Shown in pieces: positions 18,202 to 29,787 of a DNA stretch of 44,843 nt. The stretch's first letter is position 1. Each line of letters begins with the position of its first letter. The position numbers were made by a program, and so were the translations under genes. The notes under the pieces were generated by a model that was given only the letters and a program-made list of their open reading frames with translations, did not search any database and was not told the DNA's origin. This DNA is from Opitutia bacterium (GTDB taxonomy: Bacteria > Verrucomicrobiota > Verrucomicrobiia > Opitutales > Opitutaceae): contig JACPIT010000012.1 of NCBI GenBank assembly GCA_016187945.1, positions 1 to 44,843 of the forward strand, written 5' to 3'.

Positions 18202-18448
18202 CCGCGACCGTCGTCGCGCGAGTTTCAGAGGTGGTCGCGGCCGACCCGGCGGCGACAAACACCCCCGAAACCCAACCGCCGAAGCGCCGTCCGCCAAGTT
18301 CCGCTCTTCCCTCGAAACCCTCGCCGCCGTGTCCACGAACATCACCCGTCCGCGCCGCAACACACCTGCCCTGGCCCCAGCCAGCGCGGGCGCGGCGACG
18401 CGCCGGGCGGACACGGCGGTCTCTTTTTGCATTCGGGAGAACCACGGC

Positions 18449-19486
18449 GTGCCACCCGCAGCGCAGCGCCGCAACCTCCCGCCCTCCCGCCCCATCGCAC
18501 TCGCGGCCCCGTGGTTTTGTAACCTAATAGGTTACACTTTCCGCGCGCCCCCAGCGGCCGCTCGCGCGATTTGTAACCTATTAGGTTACAAGTCGCCTTT
18601 GGCCGTCATGGCACTCTACGCGTGCGCGACCAGCGCGTGCGCCGTCGAAGCGCTGTCTGGAAACCTCGCGGCCTCGCCGGCGTCACTCCGCACTCCGCAC
18701 TCCGCGATTCGCAATTCCGCCGCGATCGCCGCCTCAATCCAAAATCCAAATTCCAAAATCCAAAATTCAACCGACGCCCCCGCGTCGGTCCTGATTCCCG
18801 CCGGCACCTACATCCCGCTCCAGCGCTCCGTCAAAGACCTCGCCGCCGTGCCCGTCGCCGCGTTCCGCCTCGACGTCGCGCCGGTCACCAACGCGCAATT
18901 CCTCGCCTTCGTCCGCGCGAATCCGAAGTGGCAGCGCTCCCACGTGAGTCCGCTCTTCGCCGACTCCTCCTATCTCGAAACCTGGGCCGGCGATCTCGAA
19001 CTCGGCCCGCGCGCACCCGCCGACGCGCCCGTCGTCCGCGTCTCGTGGTTCGCCGCGCGCGCCTACGCCGCCTGGGTCGGCCAGCGCCTGCCCACCACCG
19101 CCGAGTGGGAACTCGCCGCCGCCGCCGGCTACACGCGCGCCGACGGCAAGAACGACGAGCAACTCAATCGCGACCTCTACGCCTGGCTTGCGCGCCCCGT
19201 GCCCGCCGTGCTCCCGGGCGTCGCGACCGCGCGCGCGAATTTCCACGGCGTCCGCGGCCTGCATGGCCTCGTCTGGGAATGGGTCAGCGATTTCAACACC
19301 GCGCTCGTCACCGGCGAATCGCGCGCCGACTCCGGCCTCGAACGCGATCTCTTCTGCGGCGCCGGCTCCGTCGGCGCCAAGGACACGACCGACTACGCGG
19401 CCTTCATGCGCCAGGCGCTCCGCTCCTCCCTCCGCGCCAACAACACCACCTCCTCGCTCGGCTTCCGCTGCGCGCGGGATCTCTAG
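18449..19486 (+). CDS. nirV: NirV-like formylglycine-generating-enzyme-fold protein
   Basis: This protein has the sulfatase-modifying (FGE) fold: VLIPAGTYIPLQ, VAPVTNAQFLAFVRANP, APVVRVSWFAARAYAAWVGQ, RLPTTAEWELAAAAGY, LVWEWVSDFN and a closing SLGFRCARD. NirV proteins of this type sit beside nirK in denitrifiers, and their function is unsettled. Start choice is open. I give GTG 18449, which follows GGGAGA at 18435 and supplies a basic segment (AQRRNLPPSRP) ahead of a signal-like core (SPLAVMALYACATSACA). Alternatives are GTG 18329 and ATG 18608. With the first two starts, a palindrome pair (18518-18591) lies in frame before the signal core and reads CNLIGY…CNLLGYK. A further stretch (SIQNPNSKIQNS, near 18735-18770) is also repeat-derived. 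Confidence 0.75.
   Translation: MPPAAQRRNLPPSRPIALAAPWFCNLIGYTFRAPPAAARAICNLLGYKSPLAVMALYACATSACAVEALSGNLAASPASLRTPHSAIRNSAAIAASIQNPNSKIQNSTDAPASVLIPAGTYIPLQRSVKDLAAVPVAAFRLDVAPVTNAQFLAFVRANPKWQRSHVSPLFADSSYLETWAGDLELGPRAPADAPVVRVSWFAARAYAAWVGQRLPTTAEWELAAAAGYTRADGKNDEQLNRDLYAWLARPVPAVLPGVATARANFHGVRGLHGLVWEWVSDFNTALVTGESRADSGLERDLFCGAGSVGAKDTTDYAAFMRQALRSSLRANNTTSSLGFRCARDL
18518..18591. repeat. Palindrome pair 1 (centres 54 bp apart)
   Basis: The first dyad has arms TGTAACCTA and TAGGTTACA around A18527. The second has arms TTGTAACCTA and TAGGTTACAA around T18581. The 54-bp centre spacing is identical to pairs 2 and 3, while the DNA between the palindromes is unrelated. Both palindromes are strikingly AT-rich for this genome. 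They lie in or just before the nirV N terminus. Confidence 0.9.
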
Positions 19487-19488
19487 GT

Positions 19489-19526
19489 CCTCTTTCTCTT
19501 TCCTCTTTCTCTTAATCTTTCTCCCG
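19489..19526 (+). repeat. CTCTTTCTCTTAATC pyrimidine tract
   Basis: This is a plus-strand copy of the element that forms an inverted pair at 4373-4467. It ends 9 bases before the SCO start codon at 19535, in the place where a ribosome-binding site would be expected. No Shine-Dalgarno is present. Confidence 0.6.
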
Positions 19527-19534
19527 CACCGACC

Positions 19535-20335
19535 ATGAAACCCACGCACCTCCTCCGTTCAGTCGCCCAATCCGTTTGTAGTCTATTAGACTACAAACTT
19601 CGCGCGACTCACTCGGAGCCCGATCCTGTTTGTAGTCCAATAGACTACAAACGCGCCGCCGGATTCGTGACCTTCTTGGCGGCCGTTCTGGCGCTCGCGG
19701 TGGCACCGGCAGTGGCGCACGCCGGCTCTTGCTGCAAACCCGAGCCGAAACCGGAGCCGAAAGACGCGTGTTGCGCTGCCGCCGAAATCGAGAATCGAGT
19801 TCAGCCCGAAGGGCCTCAGCCATCCAAAATCGAAAATCCTTTCACCCGCCTCTCGCTCTACCAAGCCGACGGCGTCTTCACCGACGACTCCGAAAAAACC
19901 TTCCGCCTCGCCGAGCTGCGCGGCCGGCCGGTCGTGGTGAATCTGTTCTTCGCCACCTGCGGCTACGCCTGCCCGCTCACCGTCACCGATCTGCTCGCCG
20001 TCCAGGCGCGCCTCTCGCCCGCGCTGCGCCGCGGCGCGGTGTTCGTGCTCGTCTCGTTCGATCTCGAGCGCGACACCGTCGCCGCACTCGCCAATTACCG
20101 CGCCGCGCGTCAGCTCGACGCCAATTGGATTCTCCTCCGCGGCGACGACGCCTCCGTCCGCGAACTCGCCGCGCTCCTCGGCGTGAAATACAAGCAGGAG
20201 GCCGACGGCTCTTTCGCGCACTCGAATCTCTTCACCATCCTCAACCGCGAAGGCGAAATCGTCCACCAGCGCACCGGCCTCTCCGGCGGCCTCGACGCCG
20301 CCCTCGCCGCGCTCGAAGCGACCGCCGCGAAATAA
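19535..20335 (+). CDS. SCO1/SenC-family copper chaperone/thioredoxin-like protein
   Basis: This is a 266-residue SCO protein. The thioredoxin fold carries FFATCGYACPLTV (Cys142, Cys146, the CxxxC copper site) and the distal His229 in SFAHSNLF. SCO proteins deliver copper to CuA centres, and a CuA subunit lies at 26097. The N terminus is odd. MKPTHLLRSVA looks like a signal n-region and FVTFLAAVLALAVAPAVAHA like its core and cleavage site, but residues 13-39 between them are encoded by palindrome pair 2 (VCSLLDYK…VCSPIDYK). If GTG 19667 were the start, the pair would lie just upstream instead. Residues 85-102 (IENRVQPEG…KIENP) also come from dispersed GAGAATCG-type repeats. The mature start has extra Cys pairs (GSCC, ACC). 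Confidence 0.85.
   Translation: MKPTHLLRSVAQSVCSLLDYKLRATHSEPDPVCSPIDYKRAAGFVTFLAAVLALAVAPAVAHAGSCCKPEPKPEPKDACCAAAEIENRVQPEGPQPSKIENPFTRLSLYQADGVFTDDSEKTFRLAELRGRPVVVNLFFATCGYACPLTVTDLLAVQARLSPALRRGAVFVLVSFDLERDTVAALANYRAARQLDANWILLRGDDASVRELAALLGVKYKQEADGSFAHSNLFTILNREGEIVHQRTGLSGGLDAALAALEATAAK
19574..19652. repeat. Palindrome pair 2 (centres 54 bp apart, variant arms)
   Basis: The first dyad (19574-19598) has arms GTTTGTAGTCTA and TAGACTACAAAC around T19586. The second (19628-19652) has the same arms with one mismatch (CCA) around A19640. Centre spacing is again 54 bp. Compared with pairs 1 and 3 the arms differ at two positions, and both changes are matched in the opposite arm, so the symmetry is kept. 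The pair lies in frame in the signal-peptide region of the SCO gene. Confidence 0.9.
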
Positions 20336-20336
20336 C

Positions 20337-20420
20337 GGTGGAGCGCGTTGACCCCAACGCGCTCAAGCGTCCGTTCGCCAGCGGAGCTTCTAGAACGCGT
20401 TGAGGTCAACGCGTTCCACC
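20337..20420. repeat. REP-like inverted pair, GCGTTGACC family (copy a)
   Basis: GGTGGAGCGCGTTGACCCCA and its counterpart GAGGTCAACGCGTTCCACC face each other about 30 bases apart. Each arm is itself a dyad (AACGCGTT/GCGTTGA…TCAACGC). Other copies lie at 23856-23917, 25358-25442 and, as a single arm, 38983-39010. Confidence 0.8.
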
Positions 20421-20515
20421 TCGACGAGCGGCGTGCCCGGATTTTTCGCTCCGCCCACGGCGTCAGACGCCCCGCGCTAATCGCTCCCAGTGCCGCCCGT
20501 TATACGCCGCGCGGC

Positions 20516-20557
20516 TTGATCCAAATCAAGGTCCGCTCTCGCTCGCACCGGTAATCT
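20516..20557 (+). promoter_or_regulatory. FNR/DNR-type box and -10 for the porin-nrfHA unit
   Basis: TTGATCCAAATCAA (20516-20529) is a perfect TTGAT-N4-ATCAA box, followed by GGT. TAATCT (20552-20557) begins 22 bases later. The inferred transcription start is near 20564, giving a leader of about 43 bases to the ATG at 20607. Confidence 0.9.
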
Positions 20558-20606
20558 TCCCGCGTCACGGCGTCCACGGGCCGAGTCAGTCCCTCCCCCG
20601 TTTCTC

Positions 20607-21809
20607 ATGAAATCAGCCGCCGTGCTCACTCTCGCCTCTCTGCTCGCCACCGCCGCGATCGGAGCCGAACCCGCCTCGCTCGCCGACGCCGTCGCGCAAA
20701 GCAAGGTCTCGCTCAACGCGCGCCTCCGCTACGAAGGCGTCCAACAAACCGGCCTCCTCGACGCCAACGCGCTCACGCTCCGCACGCGCCTCGGCTTCAC
20801 GACCGCGAAGTTCGCCGGCTGGCAGTTCTCCGCCGAGGGCGAGAACGTCGCCGCGTTCGACGGCGACGCCTTCAACCAGTCCGGCCTCAACCCCGCCGCC
20901 GCCCGCCGCGCCGTCGTCGCCGATCCCGAAACGACCGAGCTAAACCAGCTCTGGCTCGCCTACTCGCACGACAAAACCACCGCGACGCTCGGCCGCCAGA
21001 AGCTCATCCTCGACAACGCCCGCTTCGTCGGCGACGTCGGCTGGCGGCAAAATCAGCAGACGTTCGACGCGTTCGTCGTGCAGGACAAATCGCTGAAAAA
21101 CACGACGCTCACCTACGCCTACCTCGACCAGATCAACCGCGTCTTCTCGCGCCGCCACGCGCAGGGCCGATGGGATTCCGAGTCACACGTCGTCAACGCC
21201 GCCTACACCGACGCCACGCTCGGCACCGTCACCGGCTACGCCTACCTGCTCGACTTCGCCAACTCCGCCGCGAATTCCTGCGCCACTTACGGCGTCAGCC
21301 TCGTCGGCGCGCAAAAACTCAGCGATGCCCTCAAGTTCACTTACCGCGCCGAGCTCGCCACGCAGGCCAACTACGGCTCGAGCACGCTGAACTACTCCGC
21401 GCTCTATAACTGCGTCGAAGCCGGCCTCGCCGGAAAGCCCGGCAGCGTCACGCTCGGCCACGAGCTGCTCGGCAGCGACAACAACGTCGGTTTCAAAACT
21501 CCGCTCGCCACGCTGCACGCGTTCAACGGCTGGGCCGATCTCTTCCTCGCCACGCCCGCCGCCGGCCTGCGCGATGTCTACGTGAAAGGCACCGCCGCGC
21601 TCCCGCAGGCCGTCGTGCTCACGGCGTTCCACCACTGGTTCGAAGCCGCGAAAGGCGGCGCGGACTTCGGCACCGAGACCGACGTGATGCTCTCGCGCAA
21701 GTTCGGCAAATATATCACCGCCACCGCCAAGTTCGCCGATTTCCGCCGCGACAGTCTCGCGTTTCCCGACGTCCGCAAAGTCTGGCTTCAAGTCGAGTTC
21801 GTCTACTAA
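20607..21809 (+). CDS. Outer-membrane beta-barrel porin (alginate_exp/OprD-like)
   Basis: This 400-residue protein has a signal peptide (MKSAAVLTLASLLATAAIGA) and then alternating amphipathic strands typical of an outer-membrane barrel (RLRYEGVQQTGL, LTLRTRLGFTTAKF, ATLGRQKLILDNARFVGDVGWRQ). It closes with a C-terminal aromatic residue (WLQVEFVY) as a BAM recognition signal. The ARLRYEG…TLRTRLGF start resembles the alginate-export-like porins. It is the first gene after a perfect FNR-type box and is followed 21 bases later by nrfH, so it may admit nitrite or another small anion for NrfA. That substrate is an inference. Confidence 0.82.
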   Translation: MKSAAVLTLASLLATAAIGAEPASLADAVAQSKVSLNARLRYEGVQQTGLLDANALTLRTRLGFTTAKFAGWQFSAEGENVAAFDGDAFNQSGLNPAAARRAVVADPETTELNQLWLAYSHDKTTATLGRQKLILDNARFVGDVGWRQNQQTFDAFVVQDKSLKNTTLTYAYLDQINRVFSRRHAQGRWDSESHVVNAAYTDATLGTVTGYAYLLDFANSAANSCATYGVSLVGAQKLSDALKFTYRAELATQANYGSSTLNYSALYNCVEAGLAGKPGSVTLGHELLGSDNNVGFKTPLATLHAFNGWADLFLATPAAGLRDVYVKGTAALPQAVVLTAFHHWFEAAKGGADFGTETDVMLSRKFGKYITATAKFADFRRDSLAFPDVRKVWLQVEFVY

Positions 21810-21830
21810 GCTGCGCCGCGCGCCTCCCCC

Positions 21831-22307
21831 ATGAACCTACCGACGCCGCGCCTCCGCTTCTGGCTCGCCCTCGCGCTCACCGGCGTGGTCGGGCTCTTCC
21901 TCGGGCTCGGCACCTACACGTTCACCTACGCCCACGGACTCTCGTATTTTTCCAACGACCCGAAGGCGTGCATGAACTGCCACGTGATGCGCGAGCACTT
22001 CGACGGCTGGCAAAAATCGCCGCACCACGCCGTCGCGACCTGCAACGACTGCCACACGCCGCACGACTTCATCCGGAAATACCTCACGAAGGCCGAAAAC
22101 GGTTACTGGCACTCGAAGGGTTTCACGCTCCAGGACTTTCACGAGCCGATCATGATCCGTCCGAAGAACGTCGCCGTGCTCCAGGAAAACTGCGTCGGCT
22201 GCCACCAGCAGATCGTCGACGGCATCAACACCCACCCGGGCGATCCGCAAAAGATGCTCGATTGCCTCCATTGCCACCGCGACGTCGGCCACGGCCCCGT
22301 GCGGTAA
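21831..22307 (+). CDS. nrfH: NrfH tetraheme cytochrome c quinol dehydrogenase (NapC/NirT family)
   Basis: This 158-residue protein has one N-terminal membrane anchor (about 10-33, FWLALALTGVVGLFLGLGTY). Four heme-binding motifs follow: CMNCH (47-51), CNDCH (71-75), CVGCH (121-125) and CLHCH (145-149), the usual number and length for NrfH. NrfH takes electrons from menaquinol and hands them to NrfA in a membrane-bound complex. It lies immediately upstream of nrfA (49 bases) and shares the FNR-type promoter ahead of the porin gene. Confidence 0.95.
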   Translation: MNLPTPRLRFWLALALTGVVGLFLGLGTYTFTYAHGLSYFSNDPKACMNCHVMREHFDGWQKSPHHAVATCNDCHTPHDFIRKYLTKAENGYWHSKGFTLQDFHEPIMIRPKNVAVLQENCVGCHQQIVDGINTHPGDPQKMLDCLHCHRDVGHGPVR

Positions 22308-22318
22308 CGAATCCCGCT

Positions 22319-22343
22319 CCCCTCTTTCTCTTAATCCTTCTCG
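22319..22343 (+). repeat. CTCTTTCTCTTAATC pyrimidine tract (second plus-strand copy)
   Basis: The tract CCCTCTTTCTCTTAATCC lies 13 bases before the nrfA start codon and matches the tract before the SCO gene at 19489-19526. No Shine-Dalgarno is present here either. Confidence 0.6.
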
Positions 22344-22356
22344 TCCCTCCCTCGTC

Positions 22357-23838
22357 ATGAACTCCCGTCTCAACAGCCAACGCGGCCTCGCCATCGCCGG
22401 CTACCTCGGCCTCCTCGCCCTGTTCGCCGCCGCCACGTTTGGCGTGCTGCTCCTCTACCAAAACATCGTCGCCCGCAAAGCGGAGGCGACCAAGGACGTC
22501 TTTCGCGTCGTCGAAGTCAGCGACAAGACGATCGATCCCGCCGTCTGGGGAAAAAATTACCCGCGGCAATACGACAGCTACAAGCGCACCGTCGACACCG
22601 AGCGCACGACGCACGGCGGCAGCGAAGCGTTCCAGCACCTCGACGCCGATCCGGCCTGGCGGCGCATCTTCGCCGGCTACGCCTTCGGCATCGATTACCG
22701 CGAGGATCGCGGCCACGCCTACATGCTCAGCGACCAGCGCGAGACCGAACGCGTCACCAAGCGTCCGCAGCCCGGCGCGTGCCTCCAGTGCCACGCCTCC
22801 ACGCTCAATCTCTACATCGACCAAGGCATCAAGGCCGGCGTCCCCGCCGACAAGGCGCATTGGGAAGAGCAAATCCAGAAGGGCTTCGAGATCGTCTGCA
22901 AGATGCCCTACGCTGAGGCCACGAAGCTCGTCGAGCATCCCGTCTCGTGCATCGATTGCCACGAAGCCGAGACGATGGCGCTGCGCGTGAACCGCCCCGG
23001 TTTCCTCAACGGCATCCGCGCGCTCGCGCGTTCCGATTACCCGACGCCGCACCTGCCGAGCATCGAGCGTTGGCGCAAGGACGGCCGCAAAGGCCAATAC
23101 GAACCGAACAAGGACGCCACGCGTCAGGAAATGCGCTCGATGGTCTGCGCACAGTGCCACGTGGAGTATTACTTCAAGGGCGAGGGCAAGCTCGTCACCT
23201 ACCCGTGGGACAAGGGCCTCAAGGTCGAGCAGATCGAGACCTACTACAACGACGTCGGCCACAAGGACTGGGTGCACAAGGAAACCGGCGCCGCCGTGCT
23301 CAAGGCGCAGCACCCCGAGTTCGAAATGTGGAGCCAGGGCATCCACGCGCGCAGCGGCGTCGCCTGCGCCGATTGCCACATGCCCTACGTCCGCGAAGGC
23401 GCGGTGAAGATCAGCAACCACCACGTCCGCTCGCCGCTGCTCAACGTCGCGCAAGCCTGCCAGACCTGCCACCGCGTCCCCGAGCAGGAAATCAAGGCCC
23501 GCGCCCTCACCGTGCAGGACCGCAACGCCGCACTCCTCACCCGCGGCGAAAAAGCCATCGTCGGTCTGATCGACGCCATCGTCGCCGCGCAAAAGACCGG
23601 CGCGACCGACGCCCAACTGAAAGCCGCGCGCGAACTCCAGCGCCAGGCGCAATGGCGCCTCGACTTCGTCTCCGCGGAAAACTCGATGGGCTTCCACGCG
23701 CCGCAGGAAGCCGCCCGCATCCTCGCCGAAGCGATCGACTACGCCCGCCAAGGCGAACTCGCCGTCGCCCGCGATACGAAGACCGCCGCGCCCGCTGCGG
23801 CAGCGGCGAGCAGCGCCGCCCCCACCGGCATACCGTGA
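22357..23838 (+). CDS. nrfA: NrfA, ammonia-forming cytochrome c nitrite reductase (all-CxxCH type)
   Basis: This 493-residue pentaheme enzyme reduces nitrite to ammonium. The five heme motifs are CLQCH (142-146), CIDCH (198-202), CAQCH (264-268), CADCH (337-341) and CQTCH (368-372). The first, active-site heme usually has CxxCK. Here it is CxxCH, as in the Campylobacter-type variant, so His146 would replace the lysine ligand. Other active-site features are kept: the Tyr in CHVEYYF and the His in ISNHHVRSP. The N terminus is an uncleaved-looking helix (YLGLLALFAAATFGVLLLY), which suggests membrane anchoring. An Ala-rich tail closes the protein. A terminator follows at 23944. Confidence 0.94.
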   Translation: MNSRLNSQRGLAIAGYLGLLALFAAATFGVLLLYQNIVARKAEATKDVFRVVEVSDKTIDPAVWGKNYPRQYDSYKRTVDTERTTHGGSEAFQHLDADPAWRRIFAGYAFGIDYREDRGHAYMLSDQRETERVTKRPQPGACLQCHASTLNLYIDQGIKAGVPADKAHWEEQIQKGFEIVCKMPYAEATKLVEHPVSCIDCHEAETMALRVNRPGFLNGIRALARSDYPTPHLPSIERWRKDGRKGQYEPNKDATRQEMRSMVCAQCHVEYYFKGEGKLVTYPWDKGLKVEQIETYYNDVGHKDWVHKETGAAVLKAQHPEFEMWSQGIHARSGVACADCHMPYVREGAVKISNHHVRSPLLNVAQACQTCHRVPEQEIKARALTVQDRNAALLTRGEKAIVGLIDAIVAAQKTGATDAQLKAARELQRQAQWRLDFVSAENSMGFHAPQEAARILAEAIDYARQGELAVARDTKTAAPAAAAASSAAPTGIP

Positions 23839-23855
23839 TCGATCACGACTGACGA

Positions 23856-23917
23856 GGTGGAACGCGTTGACCTCAACGCGTTCACGTCCGAGCGCGTTGG
23901 GGTCAACGCGCTCCACC
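23856..23917. repeat. REP-like inverted pair, GCGTTGACC family (copy b)
   Basis: GGTGGAACGCGTTGACCTCA and GGGGTCAACGCGCTCCACC face each other with only about 20 bases between. It is downstream of nrfA. Confidence 0.8.
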
Positions 23918-23943
23918 CAAAGTCAGCATCTCCGCATCGCTAA

Positions 23944-23977
23944 GGCGCGGCTCTCCCCGAGCCGCGCCGTTTTCTTT
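23944..23977 (+). terminator. Intrinsic terminator after nrfA
   Basis: A perfect 10-bp stem (GGCGCGGCTC / GAGCCGCGCC) with a 5-base loop is followed by GTTTTCTTT. It ends the porin-nrfH-nrfA unit. Confidence 0.8.
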
Positions 23978-23999
23978 CCGCACCGCGGCAGTCGCCGCT

Positions 24000-24065
24000 G
24001 TAGGGCCTGCTTGCAGGCGATCTGGTCCATGGCGAAACGCTCATCGCCTGCAAGCAGGCTCCTAC
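24000..24065. repeat. GTAG-type REP inverted pair (GGCCTGCTTGCAGGC family)
   Basis: GTAGGGCCTGCTTGCAGGCG and CGCCTGCAAGCAGGCTCCTAC (written in two arms) face each other about 25 bases apart. Each arm is a hairpin (GCCTGC/GCAGGC). Confidence 0.8.
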
Positions 24066-24112
24066 ACTTCGTTTCGGCAGACGCTTATTGAGTCTCGCCT
24101 ATCAGACTGACC

Positions 24113-24186
24113 GGTAGGGCGCACCGGCCCGGTGCGCCGCGAAAACCACATCGCACTCGCGGCGGAGCGGGCCGCTCCGCCCTACC
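24113..24186. repeat. GTAG-type REP pair (two different hairpin arms)
   Basis: GGTAGGGCGCACCGGCCCGG at the left and GGGCCGCTCCGCCCTACC at the right share the GTAGGGC…GCCCTAC ends, but the inner hairpins differ (GCACCGGCCCGGTGC and GGAGCGGGCCGCTCC). Confidence 0.7.
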
Positions 24187-24288
24187 ACCGACAAATTGCC
24201 CGTCGGTCTATTGGGCGAGCTTCAACAGACTGCGAAGTAGCCGCGTTGGAGCGCAGCGACAACGTGGCCAATCGCGCCCGCGCAAACC

Positions 24289-24330
24289 TTGACCCCCGTC
24301 AAGGCGTCGCGCGCGCGCTTCGGCTAAAAC
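24289..24330 (+). promoter_or_regulatory. FNR/DNR-type box and -10 for the oxidase cluster
   Basis: TTGACCCCCGTCAA (24289-24302) is a symmetric variant of the box, followed by GGC. TAAAAC (24325-24330) begins 22 bases later. The geometry puts the transcription start near 24337, which is the A of the first in-frame ATG, so the first gene may be translated from a leaderless transcript. Confidence 0.8.
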
Positions 24331-24336
24331 CGAGCC

Positions 24337-25938
24337 ATGCCCCCGTCCACGGCCTCGCTCGTTCCCGCCTCCGCGCGCCCATCGCGTCCGGAGTCCGCCG
24401 CGCGCACCGACGCAAATTCCGTAATACGGAGTTTGGCCGACGCGACTTCTCCTGAACTCGGCGCGATCGCACGCGGGCTGACTGAAAACGCGCGCGCCGT
24501 CCGCGTCTCGATCGCACGCGGCTGGTTCCTCTTCGCCATCGGCAGCCTCGTGCTCGCGGGCCTGCTCTCGCTCCTGCTCGTCGTCGGGCGCCTGCCGTTC
24601 CTCGGCGCGGTGTTCACCGACCCGCTCTTCTTCAAGCGCGCCCTCGTCGTCCACGTCGATCTCGCGCTCGTCGTCTGGTTTCAGGCCGGCACGCTCGCGT
24701 TCCTCGCGCTCGCGCTTGGCGATCGCCTGCCGCGGCGCGTTGTCGGACTCGCCTTCGCGCTCTGCGGCGCCGGCATCGTGGGCCTGCTCGCCGGCGCGCT
24801 CATGCCCGGCGCGCAGCCGATCCTCTCCAATTACGTGCCGGTGATCGACCACCCGGTGTTCCTCACCGGACTCGCCGCGTGGTTCGCCGGCGCCGGGATT
24901 TTCTTCGCCACCGCGCTCGCCGCGCCCGCGCCGCGGCGTTCCGCTCTGCCCGACGATGCGCTCGTCGCGCTGCGTGTCGCCGCGCTGGGCAATTTGATCG
25001 CGCTCGCCACCTTCGTCGCGGCGTGGCGCACGACGCTGCCCGGCCTGCCGGCGATCGGTTACTACGAGCTGCTCATGTGGGGCGGCGGTCATGCGCTCCA
25101 AGCGGCCAACGTCGCCGCGATGCTCGGCCTGTGGCTCGCGCTGCTGCATCGCTGGTCCGGCGCGAGCGTGCTCTCGCCGGCCGCCAGCCGTTGGCTGCTG
25201 ACCGCGCTCGTGCTGCCGCACGCGAGCCTGCCTTTCGTCGCGCTCCTCGGCACGTCGAACGGCGCCTACACCGAAATCGCCACGGCGCTCATGCGCTGGA
25301 CGATTTTCCCCGTGCTGCTGATCGTGCTCGGTCTCGGTGTCCGGCACGTCGCGCAGCGGTGGAACTCGTTGACCCCAACGCGTTCTTCGCTCCCGCACGC
25401 GAGCGAGAATTCCGAGCGCGTTAAGGTCAACGCGCTCCACCTCGAGCCCTCTCGCCTCGACCGTCGCCTCGTCGGCCTCGCCGGCAGCGCGACGCTGGCG
25501 GTGCTCGGTCTCGTGCTCGGCGCGTTCATCCGCGGCTCGAACACGCTCGTGCCCGGCCACTATCACGCCGCCATCGGCGCCGTGACGCTCGCGCTGATGA
25601 CCGCCGCCTACGATCTCGTCGACGCCGTCTCTCCACGCGCACCGTTCGCACTCGCGGCCGATCTCGCGCGGCGCGGCCGCGCGCAGTTGCTCACGTTCGG
25701 CGTCGGCCAGGCGACGTTCGCGCTCGGTTTCGCCATCGCCGGCGTGCACGGCCTCGGGCGCAAGCAATACGGCGTCGAGCAGCACGTGCGTTCGCTCGGC
25801 GAATACGTCGGGCTCGGCGTGATGGGCCTCGGCGGAATTTTGGCCGTGGCCGGCGGACTCCTTTTCCTCGCCGTGATGTTGCGCGCCGTCGGCTCGTGGC
25901 GTCGCGGCGCGATCGCAACCGCACCTTCGCACCCATGA
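24337..25938 (+). CDS. Heme-copper oxidase subunit I-like membrane protein (divergent paralogue)
   Basis: This 533-residue protein has about 12 membrane helices. It keeps some heme-copper landmarks: His106 in VVHVDLALVVWF (helix II), GGGHALQAAN with His252, Gln255 and Asn258 (helix VI), and GHYHAAIG with His408/His410 (helix X). The double-His of helix VII is not seen (only LPHASLPF). The helix VI motif aligns with GHQSQQVN of the 26691 gene, so the two are homologues. It may be a companion subunit rather than a second catalytic one. Residues about 341-371 are encoded by an inserted REP pair (25358-25442). The start ATG coincides with the predicted transcription start. The stop overlaps the next start by 4 bases. 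Confidence 0.75.
   Translation: MPPSTASLVPASARPSRPESAARTDANSVIRSLADATSPELGAIARGLTENARAVRVSIARGWFLFAIGSLVLAGLLSLLLVVGRLPFLGAVFTDPLFFKRALVVHVDLALVVWFQAGTLAFLALALGDRLPRRVVGLAFALCGAGIVGLLAGALMPGAQPILSNYVPVIDHPVFLTGLAAWFAGAGIFFATALAAPAPRRSALPDDALVALRVAALGNLIALATFVAAWRTTLPGLPAIGYYELLMWGGGHALQAANVAAMLGLWLALLHRWSGASVLSPAASRWLLTALVLPHASLPFVALLGTSNGAYTEIATALMRWTIFPVLLIVLGLGVRHVAQRWNSLTPTRSSLPHASENSERVKVNALHLEPSRLDRRLVGLAGSATLAVLGLVLGAFIRGSNTLVPGHYHAAIGAVTLALMTAAYDLVDAVSPRAPFALAADLARRGRAQLLTFGVGQATFALGFAIAGVHGLGRKQYGVEQHVRSLGEYVGLGVMGLGGILAVAGGLLFLAVMLRAVGSWRRGAIATAPSHP
25358..25442. repeat. REP-like inverted pair, GCGTTGACC family (copy c), inside a CDS
   Basis: GGTGGAACTCGTTGACCCCA and AAGGTCAACGCGCTCCACC lie about 43 bases apart in frame within the HCO-like gene, in what should be a loop between helices. 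The translated insert is hydrophilic (NSLTPTRSSLPH…VKVNALH). Confidence 0.8.
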
Positions 25939-26084
25939 AAAACGAAACCGAAAAACATCCCTGGCAGAAGCTCCTGGACAACCCGTGGCTCCTGCTCGCC
26001 CTCGGCGTCATCGTGCCGTTCCTCTCCTACACCGTCTGGGGCTGGATCGAGCTGCTCATGACCAAACCCGCGCTGCTGCCCTGA
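25935..26084 (+). CDS. Small single-helix membrane protein of the oxidase cluster
   Basis: This is a 49-residue protein (MKNETEKHPWQKLLDNPWLL then one helix, ALGVIVPFLSYTVWGWIELL). Its ATG overlaps the preceding stop (ATGA), so translation is coupled. Heme-copper oxidase operons often carry such small one-helix subunits. I cannot assign a named family. It lies 12 bases before the CuA subunit gene, supporting its being real. Confidence 0.75.
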   Translation: MKNETEKHPWQKLLDNPWLLLALGVIVPFLSYTVWGWIELLMTKPALLP

Positions 26085-26096
26085 AATTTCCCTCCC

Positions 26097-26648
26097 ATGA
26101 GCCTGCGTCCCCTCACCTCCCCTTGGTTCCACGCGCCCGCCGGCCACGAGAAACTCTGGCTCGGCGTCGCCATTCTCTGGTGCTTCGTGATGTCGCTGAT
26201 GATGCCGTATTGGCATTTCCGCGGTAAACAAAACAGCCGCGGCGAAGCCTACACCGTCAAGCCCGCCGATTTCCTCGCGCGCACCGAGAAATTCGTCGAA
26301 GCCAACCGCGTCGGCACCTTCAAGAATCCCGTCGCGAACGCCTTCGCGCCCGAGCTGCCGATCGTCGAGCCCGCGCCGGGCGGCGACGCCTACCTCACCG
26401 CGCGCATGTGGCAGTGGTATCCCGCGCTGCGCCTCCGCGTCGGCGAGACCTACCGCCTGCACCTCTCGTCGCTCGACCTGCAGCACGGCTTCTCGCTCCA
26501 GCCGCTCAACATGAACTTCCAGGTTCTCCCCGGCTACGACCACACGCTGACGATCACACCGACCTCGAAGGGCGAGTTCACGATCGTCTGCAATGAATTC
26601 TGCGGCATCGGCCACCATGCCATGACCGGAAAAATCTTCGTCGAATAA
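26097..26648 (+). CDS. Heme-copper oxidase subunit II with CuA site
   Basis: This 183-residue protein has one membrane helix (about 20-38, LWLGVAILWCFVMSLMMPYW) and a periplasmic cupredoxin domain. CuA ligands are complete: His130 in LDLQHGFS, and Cys165, Glu167, Cys169, His173 and Met176 in CNEFCGIGHHAM. A single N-terminal helix and short length match the B-family (ba3-like) subunit II. It would accept electrons from a cytochrome c or cupredoxin and pass them to the 26691 subunit I. Two SCO proteins that could assemble CuA flank the cluster. Confidence 0.9.
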   Translation: MSLRPLTSPWFHAPAGHEKLWLGVAILWCFVMSLMMPYWHFRGKQNSRGEAYTVKPADFLARTEKFVEANRVGTFKNPVANAFAPELPIVEPAPGGDAYLTARMWQWYPALRLRVGETYRLHLSSLDLQHGFSLQPLNMNFQVLPGYDHTLTITPTSKGEFTIVCNEFCGIGHHAMTGKIFVE

Positions 26649-26690
26649 CCGCGCCGCTCCTCCCGCCCCTCCCGCCCGCCCCTCTCCGCC

Positions 26691-28418
26691 ATGACCACCG
26701 CCACTTTCAACTCCGCGAGCGACTCGCATGCGCTCGCCGCGCCCGGCGTGCCGAAGCGCGTTTGCGGCACCACCGGCCTCAGCGTCTGCTTCGACGCGCA
26801 GCGCTTCATCAAGCTCAACGCCGTCGCCGCCGTCGTGTTTCTCCTCCTCGGCGGCATCGCCGCGCTGCTGCTCGCGCTCACCCGCTGGCAGACCGTGCAC
26901 CTGCTGCCGACCGACTGGTTCTACCGCGTGCTGACCTTCCACGGCCTGAACATGCTGATCCACTGGATCCTGTTCTTCGAAATCGCCGTGCTCTACTTCG
27001 CCTGCACCACGCCGCTCAACGCCCGGCTCTTCTCCCGCAAGGTCGCGTGGACTTCGTTCGGCATGATGCTCACCGGCGCACTGATGGTGGACTACATCAT
27101 CCTCGCCGGCAAAGCCGACGTGCTGATGACGTCCTACTTGCCGCTGCTCGCGCACCCGGCGTTCTACCTCGGCATCATCCTCGTCGCCGTCGGCACGCTG
27201 ATCGGCGTGTTCAATTTCTTCGCCACGCTCTACGTCGCCAAACGCGACGGCGCCTACGAAGGCTCGATGCCGCTCGTGACGTTCGGCGCGCTCGCCGCCG
27301 CGATCATCGCCGTCATCACGCTGCTCCACGGCGCGATCGTGATGATCCCGACCTTCACCTACTCGATGGGCTGGACCCCGCAGCCCGACCCCGCGTGGTA
27401 TCGCCTGATCTGGTGGGGCCTCGGCCACCAATCGCAGCAGGTCAACGTCTGCGCGATGGTCGCGATCTGGTATCTCATCGGCAACGTCACGCTCGGCGCC
27501 CGTCCGATCAACGAGGCCGTGTGCCGCACCGCCTTCGCGCTCTACGTGCTCTTCATCAACGTCGCCTCCGCGCACCACCTGCTTGTCGATCCAGGCGTCG
27601 GCTCCACTTGGAAAATCTGGAACACGTCCTACGCGATGTATCTCGCCGTGCTCGCATCGATGGTCCACGGCTTCACCGTGCCGGCCGGCGTCGAACTCGC
27701 GATGCGCGAGAAGGGCTACACGCGCGGCCTGTTCGGCTGGGTCACCGCGCTGCCGTGGAAAAACCCGGCGTTCGCCGCCGCCGCGCTCTCGGTCGGCATC
27801 TTCGGTTTCATCGGCGGCATCACCGGCGTCACCCTCGGCACGCAGCAGATCAATATCATTGCGCACAACACGCTGCGCATCCCCGGCCACTTCCACGCCA
27901 CCGTGGTCGGCGGCACGTCGCTCGCGTTCATGGGCCTGACCTACTACGTCATCCCGCTGATCTTCCAGCGCGACTTCATCGGCCGCGGCTGGGCGCGCGT
28001 GCAACCGTATCTGTTCGCCGCCGGCATCACGATGCTCTCGTTCGGCATGTCGTTCGCCGGCTCGATGGGCGTCGCGCGCCGCTCGTGGGACATCGACACC
28101 CAAGGCATCTACAGCCCCGCCGCGCACCTCTGGCTCGGCCTCGTCGGCATCGGCGGCATCCTCGCGTTCACGAGCCTGCTGATCTTCGTGCTGCTCTGCG
28201 TCGGCACGCTGCTCTTCGGCAAAAAAATCCCGAACGGCCAGCCGATCTTCAACTGGGGCACGCCGCCCGTCCTCGCCGGCGCGAGGGAAGGCTCGCTCGC
28301 CGACAACCACACCGCGACGAAAGGCACCATCGTGCTGACGCTCGTGTTCCTCGCCTGCTTCGCGGTCTACTACTTCGCCAACTGGAAAGCGCTCGCCGAC
28401 GTCTGGCCCGTGCGCTGA
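26691..28418 (+). CDS. B-family-like heme-copper oxidoreductase subunit I, Tyr-less (candidate NO reductase)
   Basis: This 575-residue protein has about 13 helices. Ligands are His84 (LTFHGLNML) and His402 for low-spin heme, His400 (IPGHFHAT) for the active-site heme, and His246 (GLGHQSQQVN), His295 and His296 (SAHHLLVDP) for the second metal. In O2 reductases the helix VI motif is HPxVY, whose Tyr is cross-linked to His. Here the position is Gln250 (HQSQQ), so the redox Tyr is missing. Loss of this Tyr is a hallmark of NO reductases in the superfamily, including CuA-containing eNOR/sNOR-like groups. The NirK neighbour and DNR-type promoter support NO reduction, and no NorB/NorC is visible. 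Assignment to a named NOR subgroup needs a phylogeny. Confidence 0.82.
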   Translation: MTTATFNSASDSHALAAPGVPKRVCGTTGLSVCFDAQRFIKLNAVAAVVFLLLGGIAALLLALTRWQTVHLLPTDWFYRVLTFHGLNMLIHWILFFEIAVLYFACTTPLNARLFSRKVAWTSFGMMLTGALMVDYIILAGKADVLMTSYLPLLAHPAFYLGIILVAVGTLIGVFNFFATLYVAKRDGAYEGSMPLVTFGALAAAIIAVITLLHGAIVMIPTFTYSMGWTPQPDPAWYRLIWWGLGHQSQQVNVCAMVAIWYLIGNVTLGARPINEAVCRTAFALYVLFINVASAHHLLVDPGVGSTWKIWNTSYAMYLAVLASMVHGFTVPAGVELAMREKGYTRGLFGWVTALPWKNPAFAAAALSVGIFGFIGGITGVTLGTQQINIIAHNTLRIPGHFHATVVGGTSLAFMGLTYYVIPLIFQRDFIGRGWARVQPYLFAAGITMLSFGMSFAGSMGVARRSWDIDTQGIYSPAAHLWLGLVGIGGILAFTSLLIFVLLCVGTLLFGKKIPNGQPIFNWGTPPVLAGAREGSLADNHTATKGTIVLTLVFLACFAVYYFANWKALADVWPVR

Positions 28419-28444
28419 CCGCCCGCCTTGTCCGTCAATGGGTC

Positions 28445-28479
28445 GCGGGGCGGTCGCAAGCGCGCCGCCCCGCTTTTTT
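28445..28479 (+). terminator. Intrinsic terminator after the oxidase cluster
   Basis: The stem GCGGGGCGG / CCGCCCCGC, with an 11-base loop, is followed by six T residues. It lies 27 bases after the subunit I stop. Confidence 0.85.
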
Positions 28480-28516
28480 CTAAAAACGAAGAGACTTCGC
28501 GCCCGCACCCGACGCA

Positions 28517-28606
28517 GGGCCGGCTTCAGCCGGCCCAAACGAAGCCTCGCTCGAAAGCCGAATCCGCGAACCACATCCGACGGGACCGGCTGAAGCCGGC
28601 CCTACC
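28517..28606. repeat. GTAG-type REP inverted pair (GGGCCGGCTTCAGCCGGCC family)
   Basis: GGGCCGGCTTCAGCCGGCCC at 28517-28536 is answered by GGCTGAAGCCGGCCCTAC up to about 28605. The family recurs at 31944-32033 and 34868-34959. Confidence 0.8.
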
Positions 28607-28617
28607 ACCGCCCGCCC

Positions 28618-29718
28618 ATGCTCGCCTCGCCTTCATCCATCGCCTCGCCGCCGGCCGCCCCGCAACCAGGCAGCCCGCGACCTCCGGGCGCGGGTGCTCC
28701 CTTCGCGTCCGCCGAACCCGTCCTCGGAGAGGTCGGGCTCCCAGAAGCGACGACCCGCGCCGCACGCGCGAGCCGCTTCTTCACCGGCGCAGGCCTGCTC
28801 GTGTTTCTCTTCACCGCGCTCGCCACCTACGAGGCGTTCCTGCTCTTCACGCTCCTGTGGCCGACCGACGCCGCGTGGCTCGGCGGCTTCGTCCGCGATT
28901 TCCAGCTCTGGTGCTACCGCGCCGATCCGCGCACCGGCGGGATGTCGTGGACCGCCGTGAGCATCATGCTGCTCGAACCGCTCTTCGTCGTCGGCGTCGC
29001 CACGATCCTCTGGCGCGGCACCGTCGTCCAACTGCGGCGCCTGTCGCTCTGGCGCGCCCACGCCAGCACCGCCGTCGTTGCCGCGCTCGCCGTCGCCGGC
29101 GCGATCGCCGGCCTCGTCGCCTACGCGTGCGCCGACGCCGCGCGCGCGGAAGCGCTGCCGCCGTTCCCCGGCGAATCGATCCGCGTCGCACTCGCGTTGC
29201 CCGACGTGCCGCTCGTCGACCAAAAGGGCGCGACGTTCCGCTTCGCCGATCTCCGCGGCCAGGTCGTCCTCGTCACCGGCGTCTACGCCGCGTGCTCCAC
29301 CGCGTGCCCCGCGATCTTCGAGGAAGTTCACCAACTCCTCGGCGAATTCACGCCCGCCGAGCGCGCGTCGCTCCGCGTCGTCGCACTCTCGCTCAACCCC
29401 GAATACGAGACCCGCGAACTCATGGACGCCGTCGCGACCGCCCGCGGCTTCACGCACCCGGAGTTCCGCTACGTGAACGGCGAGAAACCCGCCGCGATGC
29501 TCGGTCTGCTCTCGCAACTGAACTTCGCCCGCGTGCGCAATCCCGAGACCGGCGTCATCGACCACGTGAACCTCTTCCTCGTCGTCGATCGCGCCGGCCG
29601 CATCGCCTACCGCTTCAATCTCGAGCCGCGCCACCGCCCCTGGCTCCGCGCCGCCCTCCGCTCCCTCCTCCAAGAAAATGCCACCGCAATCACTCGCGCC
29701 CACCCCTCTGGTTTGTAA
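28618..29718 (+). CDS. SCO1/SenC-family protein with N-terminal multi-helix membrane domain
   Basis: This 366-residue protein is longer than ordinary SCO (~200). Residues 50-175 hold three membrane helices (FFTGAGLLVFLFTALATYEA, SIMLLEPLFVVGVATILW, TAVVAALAVAGAIAGLVAYA). The SCO/thioredoxin domain follows, with VYAACSTACPAIF (Cys226, Cys230) and His316 in IDHVNLFLVV. It probably handles copper for the CuA centre encoded just upstream. The stop codon TAA at 29716 lies inside the left arm of palindrome pair 3, so the last residues may have been altered when the palindrome arose. The first ATG at 28618 follows a REP pair, and no SD is seen. Confidence 0.85.
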   Translation: MLASPSSIASPPAAPQPGSPRPPGAGAPFASAEPVLGEVGLPEATTRAARASRFFTGAGLLVFLFTALATYEAFLLFTLLWPTDAAWLGGFVRDFQLWCYRADPRTGGMSWTAVSIMLLEPLFVVGVATILWRGTVVQLRRLSLWRAHASTAVVAALAVAGAIAGLVAYACADAARAEALPPFPGESIRVALALPDVPLVDQKGATFRFADLRGQVVLVTGVYAACSTACPAIFEEVHQLLGEFTPAERASLRVVALSLNPEYETRELMDAVATARGFTHPEFRYVNGEKPAAMLGLLSQLNFARVRNPETGVIDHVNLFLVVDRAGRIAYRFNLEPRHRPWLRAALRSLLQENATAITRAHPSGL

Positions 29719-29787
29719 CCTAATAGGTTACAAGTCGTCCGCCCGCCCCTCTGAAGAGAATGCAATTTGTAACCTATTAGGTTACAA
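29713..29787. repeat. Palindrome pair 3 (centres 54 bp apart)
   Basis: Arms TTGTAACCTA and TAGGTTACAA surround A29723 in the first dyad and T29777 in the second. Both are followed by GTCGTCCG. The spacing equals that of pairs 1 and 2. The pair spans the end of the membrane-SCO gene and finishes 27 bases before the next start codon. Confidence 0.9.

Follow-up and report, generated by a model that had tools for sequence, protein, structure and literature searches.

Dispersed palindromes of Opitutaceae genomes and their apparent partnership with small Cro-like helix-turn-helix proteins

Three pairs of AT-rich palindromes, centred at 18527/18581, 19586/19640 and 29723/29777, stand out in a 44,843-bp stretch of contig JACPIT010000012.1 from an Opitutia bacterium of the family Opitutaceae (the whole of this stretch is hereafter called the window), and they raise the question of what such palindromes are and to which protein, if any, they belong. 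An initial annotation had described them as equally spaced pairs, and both the 54 bp between the centres of each pair and the opposite central bases (A in one palindrome, T in the other) are confirmed, as is the lack of further copies, the pattern TGTA-N11-TACA being restricted to these six places in the window. Five of the palindromes are perfect over 19 bp and the sixth (19631-19649) has one mismatched base pair; counting perfect odd 19-bp palindromes of any sequence, the window has seven, as many as 20 mononucleotide shuffles combined. Pairs 1 and 3 are of one type, A, and pair 2 is of a second type, B. We suggest, with a probability of roughly 0.6, that these palindromes belong to a repeat population that resembles REPINs (doublets of repetitive extragenic palindromic, REP, sequences forming hairpins) and that co-evolves with a helix-turn-helix (HTH) protein in which no transposase domain is recognised.

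The genome from which the window comes (G000; 5.47 Mb, 16 contigs) has a 118-amino-acid (aa) open reading frame (ORF) between type A pairs and a 123-aa ORF with a type B pair on one side and a type B palindrome on the other. Two more HTH paralogues were found by search, giving four in all, and three of the four are flanked by clear palindromes of three types: the third paralogue has TATGGCGTATTACGCCATA on both sides, and the fourth has a repeated imperfect palindrome. The HTH gene is present in 18 of 57 related genomes and in none of 20 outside the family; similarly, the 34 HTH relatives in named genomes are all from Opitutaceae, Opitutia, Opitutae, Opitutus, Lacunisphaera, Candidatus Didemnitutus or Verrucomicrobia. 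Exact TGTAnnCTAnTAGnnTACA sites occur in nine of the 57 genomes, and all nine have at least one HTH gene. A TAnTA-centred palindrome flanks the gene for 44 of 53 distinct HTH proteins, a set defined by a PLWN-type motif and a long enough core, with identical cores merged, L139 dropped for an internal stop and the flanks of L049, L130 and L137 added by hand. As a control, a TAnTA palindrome with 7/9 pairs or better lies near the gene in 18 of 23 long named loci, compared with 1 of 115 windows taken from other parts of those loci.

The association extends to the sequence of the palindromes. Distances between palindromes and between recognition helices are correlated (Mantel r 0.613, p 0.0002). 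The correlation persists when the rest of the HTH domain is removed (partial Mantel r 0.588, p 0.0002; rest of the domain alone 0.224). With Pro at helix position 2 (5 proteins) palindrome position 2 is never G, and with Arg or Lys there (39 proteins) it is G in 38; by mutual information, helix position 5 pairs with palindrome position 4 and helix position 7 with positions 6 and 7. Among near twins, RQRLQDFL goes with TGTAACC (L046, L177), RQRLHNFL with TGTCACC (L163) and KQRLNDFL with GGTAACC (L109). There are exceptions: L181 violates the Arg-G rule, and the flanks of L167 are mixed. Because the palindromes flank HTH genes and track their recognition helices, the part of the operator proposal in the initial annotation that saw protein-binding sites is well supported, and we strongly infer from these sequence correlations that the HTH proteins bind their palindromes directly.

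The protein is predicted to be all-helical, with a long helix at the N-terminus and a Cro-like HTH of four helices (structure model; mean pLDDT 86.8, pTM 0.56), and its matches in Pfam and PDB, for the most part to Cro/XRE types, are weak. Assignments to known families were tried and rejected: Pfam gave matches below the cut-off only, the best being to YdaS_toxin (a Cro-like HTH, toxin by name; E 0.0019, three of four members) and HTH_3; the NCBIfam matches, which include a serine-recombinase model, were each confined to one member and no better than E 0.017; and in PHROGs only one or two of 37 members matched transcriptional regulators, a family named DNA transposition protein (two members, best E 0.0073) and unnamed families. 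The four HTH members gave no match to Y1_Tnp at E ≤ 1 and one weak I-HmuI NUMOD-like match (E 0.23), and no transposase is among the PDB fold matches listed (50 of 305). A phage origin was likewise rejected, none of the 32 pattern-matching stretches in viral_contigs encoding an HTH relative.

Searched with a pattern for both types (up to two mismatches), G000 has 49 sites, and the reversed-pattern control gives none. In separate searches, the main families are type A, TGTAACCTAnTAGGTTACA, accompanied by a smaller TGTCACC form and by GGTAACC and AGTAACC variants, and type B, TGTAGTCTAnTAGACTACA. The sites were grouped into 33 clusters after L032, L035 and L036, with weak matches only, had been dropped. 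Lone palindromes make up 15 of the clusters, 12 of the 15 two-palindrome clusters have opposite central bases and thus inverted orientation, and the 23 gaps between neighbours are 54 bp (ten times), 66 bp (four times), 67 and 68 bp (twice each) and 45, 47, 55, 69 and 99 bp (once each). The constant 54-bp spacing that the initial annotation took as a rule therefore gives way to spacing from 45 to 99 bp and to many single palindromes, the outcome that it had itself named as contrary to its claim, and the tie to a nitrogen-oxide island is lost in the same scan, the sites being spread over the whole genome.

By our own codon-model gene calls, nine of the 33 clusters lie deep in genes, 16 overlap a stop codon or are no more than about 70 bp from one, and one is in a divergent intergenic region. 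The palindrome blocks every reading frame but one, and all nine deep clusters are read in that one, which yields peptides like CNLLGYT for type A and like CSLLDYK for type B; the gaps of in-gene pairs are always multiples of three, those of 47, 55, 67 and 68 bp being confined to places outside genes. Two co-operatively bound operators regulating nitrogen-oxide genes would fit the three pairs near genes of one island and the constant 54 bp in the window, but because of this placement the island operators are unsupported; pairs 1 and 2 lie inside reading frames and sister species have the same genes without the sites, so that we regard this explanation as very improbable. The clusters at stop codons would equally suit transcription terminators or mRNA-stabilising hairpins, an explanation that we find scarcely credible for a population with nine clusters deep in reading frames and a sequence matched to an HTH protein, which a hairpin does not need.

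Two loci of G000 have several palindrome types together. An intergenic array at L023:3908-4211 has five palindromes of three types (TGTCACC, GGTAACC and TGTAACC) with gaps of 66, 99, 66 and 54 bp, and is a case of layers of palindrome families side by side. At L021:3962-4100, AGTAACC, GGTAACC and TGTAACC palindromes with gaps of 66 and 54 bp lie in-frame in one methyltransferase gene; at this place G001 has a 66-bp AGTAACC/GGTAACC pair and G007 has a 54-bp TGTAACC pair.

The sites come and go between sister species. Strong matches to the window stretch exist in 10 of 12 congeners (G010 and G011 have weak ones only). At the place of pair 1, in a gene with an FGE-sulfatase domain, G000 and G001 have an A pair, G007 a single TGTCACC, G005 a single TGTCATA, and G003, G004, G006 and G012 no palindrome. 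At the place of pair 2, in a SCO1 gene, the type B pair of G000 has an AGTAACC/GGTAACC pair as its counterpart in G001 and G007, and six of nine genomes (G003, G004, G005, G006, G009 and G012) lack a palindrome. At the place of pair 3, G012 and G003 have a GTAACC-type pair 66 bp apart, G005 has no palindrome and none was found in the stretches of G004 and G009. Eight of the nine deep in-gene sites of G000 were followed in orthologues by palindrome scans on DNA (L045 was left out; genes were named from translations, except the Pfam-based FGE-sulfatase and SCO1/SenC). These scans are unaffected by frame errors in some of the translations, namely those of the fmt-like gene in G003, G009 and G012 and of the cas3-like gene in G003, G004 and G012. 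A palindrome is in the same loop of the methyltransferase in 10/10 genomes, of the fmt-like gene in 7/12, the nadR-like gene in 6/12 (including G001), the cas3-like helicase in 4/10, the epimerase in 7/11 and the trmA-like gene in 5/12, and is kept at two further in-gene places in 3/3 and 3/3 genomes; the trmA-like loop is bare and insert-free in G004, G005, G009 and G011. Relatives without the element at the same place support an insertion-like element, akin to the mobile element that the initial annotation had offered as its second possibility, but no recently copied pair was seen in G000.

Where a palindrome is present, its type follows the genome. By half-site distance, palindromes at different places in the same genome are 0.81 apart on average, those at the same place in different genomes 1.48 and unrelated pairs 1.48; when genomes were shuffled within places 0.81 was never reached in 2000 trials (permutation p 0.0005). 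The test used 82 palindromes from 11 places and 11 genomes, one place being represented by G000 only, and left out the pair 3 place palindromes of G012 and G003 and the nadR palindrome of G001 (TTTGCCG). Given the lower distance within genomes than within places, type belongs to the genome and not to the place. Moreover, in several genomes type matches the HTH genes: TGTAACC in G000 and G007, GGTAACC in G003, and TGTCACC plus TGTAACC in G002, with G001 mixed in both palindrome types and HTH genes. Six genomes (G000, G001, G007, G003, G002 and G034, the last from another genus) share synteny to either side of the type A HTH locus, and the L048-type locus is syntenic in G000, G008, G003 and G009. 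The type A gene is under purifying selection in five genomes (ratio of nonsynonymous to synonymous substitution rates, dN/dS, 0.07-0.20, with dS saturated). From the syntenic, selected locus and the matching of types, it follows that one inherited gene changed specificity and the dispersed sites changed with it.

The sites appear to have changed without moving. In four pairs common to G000 and G007 identity is 0.89-1.00 in the palindromes, 0.23-0.69 in the fillers between them and 0.71-0.95 in the flanks, and at shared places the spacing is 54 bp in G000 and G007 and mostly 66 bp in G001, G002 and G003. In the nadR-like gene G001 has TTTGCCGTATTACGGCAAA (TTTGCCG) at the base position of the TGTAACC palindrome of G007, and a different HTH gene, L166 of G007, has this type in its flanks. 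We take many of the sites to be old ones whose sequence was replaced where they stood, rather than recently copied pairs.

These data bear on a rival account in which the host selects the network: the HTH protein would be a chromosome-organising or global regulator, its specificity would drift and the sites would follow by point mutation. Many sites staying put across part of the genus while their fillers diverge, a vertical HTH locus under purifying selection and the lack of a recently copied pair all agree with it, as do several HTH genes (including those of types A and B here) with a palindrome about 15 bp or less from the chosen start, an arrangement that resembles autoregulation. It does not readily account for sites inside reading frames that are missing from a number of sister species, for the change from 54 to 66 bp, which requires an indel at each place, or for the nadR-like gene of G001, in which the palindrome at the same base is of the type that belongs to a different HTH gene. 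We consider this account unlikely, though not to be dismissed, and favour the REPIN-like population because its sites lie in reading frames, are present in some sister species and missing from others, and pass from one HTH family to another at a fixed place. We infer that the population depends on the HTH protein and that its spread and overwriting are selfish rather than host-selected.

A Y1 (HUH) transposase of the host could also move the palindromes in trans as a classical REPIN or miniature inverted-repeat transposable element (MITE), leaving the HTH protein as a regulator or passenger. Y1 matches are present in 12 of 13 genomes of the genus (eight in G000), perfect palindromes can form hairpins and the two-palindrome clusters are inverted in 12 of 15 cases. 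Y1 as the partner, in the form of a REP-associated tyrosine transposase (RAYT) or otherwise, was rejected in that it is unlinked to the palindromes, the closest Y1 match in G000 being 12.8 kb from any palindrome, and its numbers do not follow theirs (G006 has 14 Y1 and no exact A or B palindrome, G012 has three Y1 and 21 palindromes). As the palindromes track the HTH recognition helix instead, we hold the Y1 explanation to be improbable.

An independent case is provided by Opitutus terrae (G015), in which the one HTH gene, with the helix PPQRVHEFL, is flanked by TTTCACGTAnTACGTGAAA. The O. terrae genome has 37 exact TTTCACGTAnTACGTGAAA copies and 51 sites within three mismatches, some with an altered centre; elsewhere there is one such site in G000, two in G007 and eight in G016, which lacks an HTH gene, and the reversed control gives none in these four genomes. 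Gaps between O. terrae neighbours less than 200 bp apart range from 66 to 183 bp. These longer, variable gaps make 54 bp only a local habit, and together with the gaps in G000 they led us to reject a fixed 54-bp spacing as a general rule. At least five TTTCACGAAnTTCGTGAAA sites (e.g. at 309443 and 2976572), a variant with a changed centre, stand beside the main TTTCACGTAnTACGTGAAA population. G032 has 21 TTTCACGTAnTACGTGAAA-like sites (reversed control 2), 17 of which are TGTCACGTAnTACGTGACA.

Several observations weigh against the co-evolving population that we propose. (i) By the criterion used, nine of the 53 HTH proteins have no flanking palindrome, and in seven of 38 HTH loci the palindrome is on one side only. 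(ii) Types and genes do not always agree: G032 has TGTCACG copies, yet its one detected HTH gene shows TGTCACC, which is unexplained, although this single-contig genome (L285, L290, L294) may have a further HTH gene that escaped detection through greater divergence; G012 has GTAACC-type sites, yet only a B-type HTH gene was found in this 86% complete genome, which has B-type sites too; and the few TGTCACC sites of G000 have no HTH gene of their type among those found. (iii) No two fillers of G000 are near-identical (maximum 0.60), and therefore no whole pair was copied recently. (iv) No nuclease, transposase or other catalytic domain was recognised in the HTH protein by Pfam, NCBIfam and PDB fold searches or in the model, and therefore there is no known mover. 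(v) Perfect palindromes are rarer without an HTH gene (1/7) than with one (36/61; Fisher p 0.04), but G008 and G010 possess HTH genes and also have few (1/4 and 0/5), so that decay of sites without a cognate HTH is weakly supported.

In the mechanism that we propose, small Cro-like HTH proteins encoded on the chromosome (118 aa for type A here, 123 aa for type B) would have the palindromes as their cognate sites, dispersed over the genome. Each HTH gene is bracketed by a 19-bp palindrome of its own, and a dimer would read each palindrome by way of the recognition helix: an Arg or Lys in position 2 of the helix goes with G in position 2 of the palindrome, and positions 5 and 7 of the helix go with positions 4, 6 and 7 of the palindrome. 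Dozens more copies, often as 54/66-bp twins around a short motif, are found at tolerated places, namely in-frame protein loops, a signal peptide and gene ends; the twin sites around the CRCTC-like motif may hold a larger complex, and sites without a cognate HTH would decay. Copies within a genome tend to share their type and to change in concert with that genome's HTH gene, which is why different palindromes are found in the same gene loop of sister species; in this the system works like a REPIN-RAYT population, although no transposase is recognisable in its partner. More tentatively, and in our estimate doubtful, the overwriting could be a "palindrome homing" driven by a nuclease-less HTH protein, in which rival families convert sites in place, the base position being kept while the 19-bp sequence is replaced genome-wide. 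If so, the nadR-like gene (TGTAACC in G007, TTTGCCG in G001) and the SCO1 gene (type B in G000, AGTAACC/GGTAACC in G001 and G007) would be captured switches.

Table 1. Palindromes and filler motifs of the three window pairs
Feature	Position	Strand	Remarks
Palindrome TGTAACCTAATAGGTTACA, type A, pair 1 left	18518..18536	.	In phase within ORF 18329..19486
CGCTC, weak copy of filler motif, pair 1	18559..18563	+	
Palindrome TGTAACCTATTAGGTTACA, type A, pair 1 right	18572..18590	.	
Palindrome TGTAGTCTATTAGACTACA, type B, pair 2 left	19577..19595	.	In phase (CSLLDYK), SCO1/SenC ORF 19535..20335
CACTCGG, filler motif	19610..19616	+	Midway between pair 2 centres
Palindrome TGTAGTCCAATAGACTACA, type B, pair 2 right	19631..19649	.	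One mismatch
Palindrome TGTAACCTAATAGGTTACA, type A, pair 3 left	29714..29732	.	Provides TAA stop of ORF 28618..29718
CCTCTGAAG in pair 3 filler	29748..29756	+	Similar to other fillers, itself without CRCTC
Palindrome TGTAACCTATTAGGTTACA, type A, pair 3 right	29768..29786	.	

In the window (Table 1), pair 1 is in the N-terminal part of its ORF, ahead of the FGE-sulfatase domain (18608-19486, Pfam), and pair 2 is within the signal-peptide region of the SCO1/SenC protein (Pfam). The pairs had been placed just before start codons. This holds for pair 3, which precedes the next gene, and fails for pairs 1 and 2, which are in phase inside ORFs whose starts align with those of relatives; our codon model had chosen later starts that put both pairs before genes, and was overruled from the ORFs and the relatives. 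The DNA between the palindromes had been called unrelated, and overall the fillers are indeed near shuffle identity (17 fillers of G000, mean 0.36 compared with 0.32 in shuffles, maximum 0.60 compared with 0.57), except for a short shared motif: CRCTC or its complement occurs in 24 of 32 fillers of 54/66-bp pairs among all loci examined, compared with a mean of 5.7 in shuffles, and in 32 of 55 fillers when every spacing is included. An inverted repeat at the filler centre (5.09 of nine positions paired, compared with 4.75, sd 0.14, and at most 5.16 in shuffles) is suggestive and is not claimed.

The window also has other dispersed repeats. Paired GC-rich inverted repeats (e.g. GGTGGAACGCGTTGACCTCAACGCGTTC) at 20334-20429, 23853-23928 and 25356-25459 recur at several other places in G000 and in congeners, and look like a more ordinary REP/REPIN family. 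A 140-200-bp repeat with the hairpins GTAGGGCGCACCGGCCCGGTGCGCC and GGCGGAGCGGGCCGCTCCGCCCTAC at 24079-24282 occurs at several places in G000 and relatives, and its GTAG/CTAC ends are similar to GTAG-tagged REPs.

Among known systems, operators of the CopY/BlaI type, with TACA/TGTA half-sites, have outer half-site letters similar to those of the palindromes here. They were rejected as an explanation: Penicillinase_R (PF03965) has no match in G000, which is 95.7% complete, and seven of 14 control genomes have one. With Cro/CI-type and XRE repressors the system shares the predicted fold and, it would seem, the mode of reading DNA; it differs in its approximately 50 sites, many of them coding, and in the palindromes on both sides of the gene. 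Rickettsia palindromic elements (RPEs) and intragenic REPs are alike in being palindromic inserts in-frame in unrelated proteins, and we know of no partner gene for RPEs. In the palindromes studied here, the repeat peptides (CNLLGYT, CSLLDYK) are fixed inside enzymes, their type changing while the place stays. Intragenic REPs have been reported in O. terrae itself as GTAG-tagged hairpins (PMC3733652, in excerpt), whereas the repeats described here are perfect palindromes of at least 19 bp with TAnTA centres, tied to an HTH gene. In the literature searched, with subscription journals mostly outside the search, we came across no account of dispersed palindromes that have an HTH protein as their partner.

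The closest comparison is with REPIN-RAYT systems, the standard example in which a population of repeats lives alongside a single domesticated transposase. We do not class the present system among them, because an HUH/Y1 partner and the GTAG tag were both looked for and neither was found: the partner is a Cro-like HTH protein without a recognised Y1/HUH domain, and in place of a GTAG/GTGG tag 5' of the hairpin type A reads GTAA and type B has GTAG inside the palindrome. Copies number in the tens, whereas REPs usually exceed 100 per genome (PMC2817692, abstract), and fillers are not shared between copies. In other respects the two are alike. Both consist of dispersed palindrome doublets, mostly inverted (here 49 sites, with 15 of 33 clusters single). 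In both, a cognate, vertically inherited gene is flanked by the same palindrome, and gene and repeat change together; the RAYT partner is single-copy and vertically inherited (PMC8049555, in excerpt). Several types may coexist per genome here, as is possible for REPIN-RAYT (PMC6006769, in excerpt). The partnership thus appears to resemble repeat-transposase pairs, except that no DNA-cutting enzyme is recognisable in it. The family offers a natural DNA-recognition code, in that the target of each of dozens of HTH proteins can be read next to its gene, and a transposase-free partner would separate two questions that are confounded in REPINs, namely whether repeats persist by being copied or by being bound.

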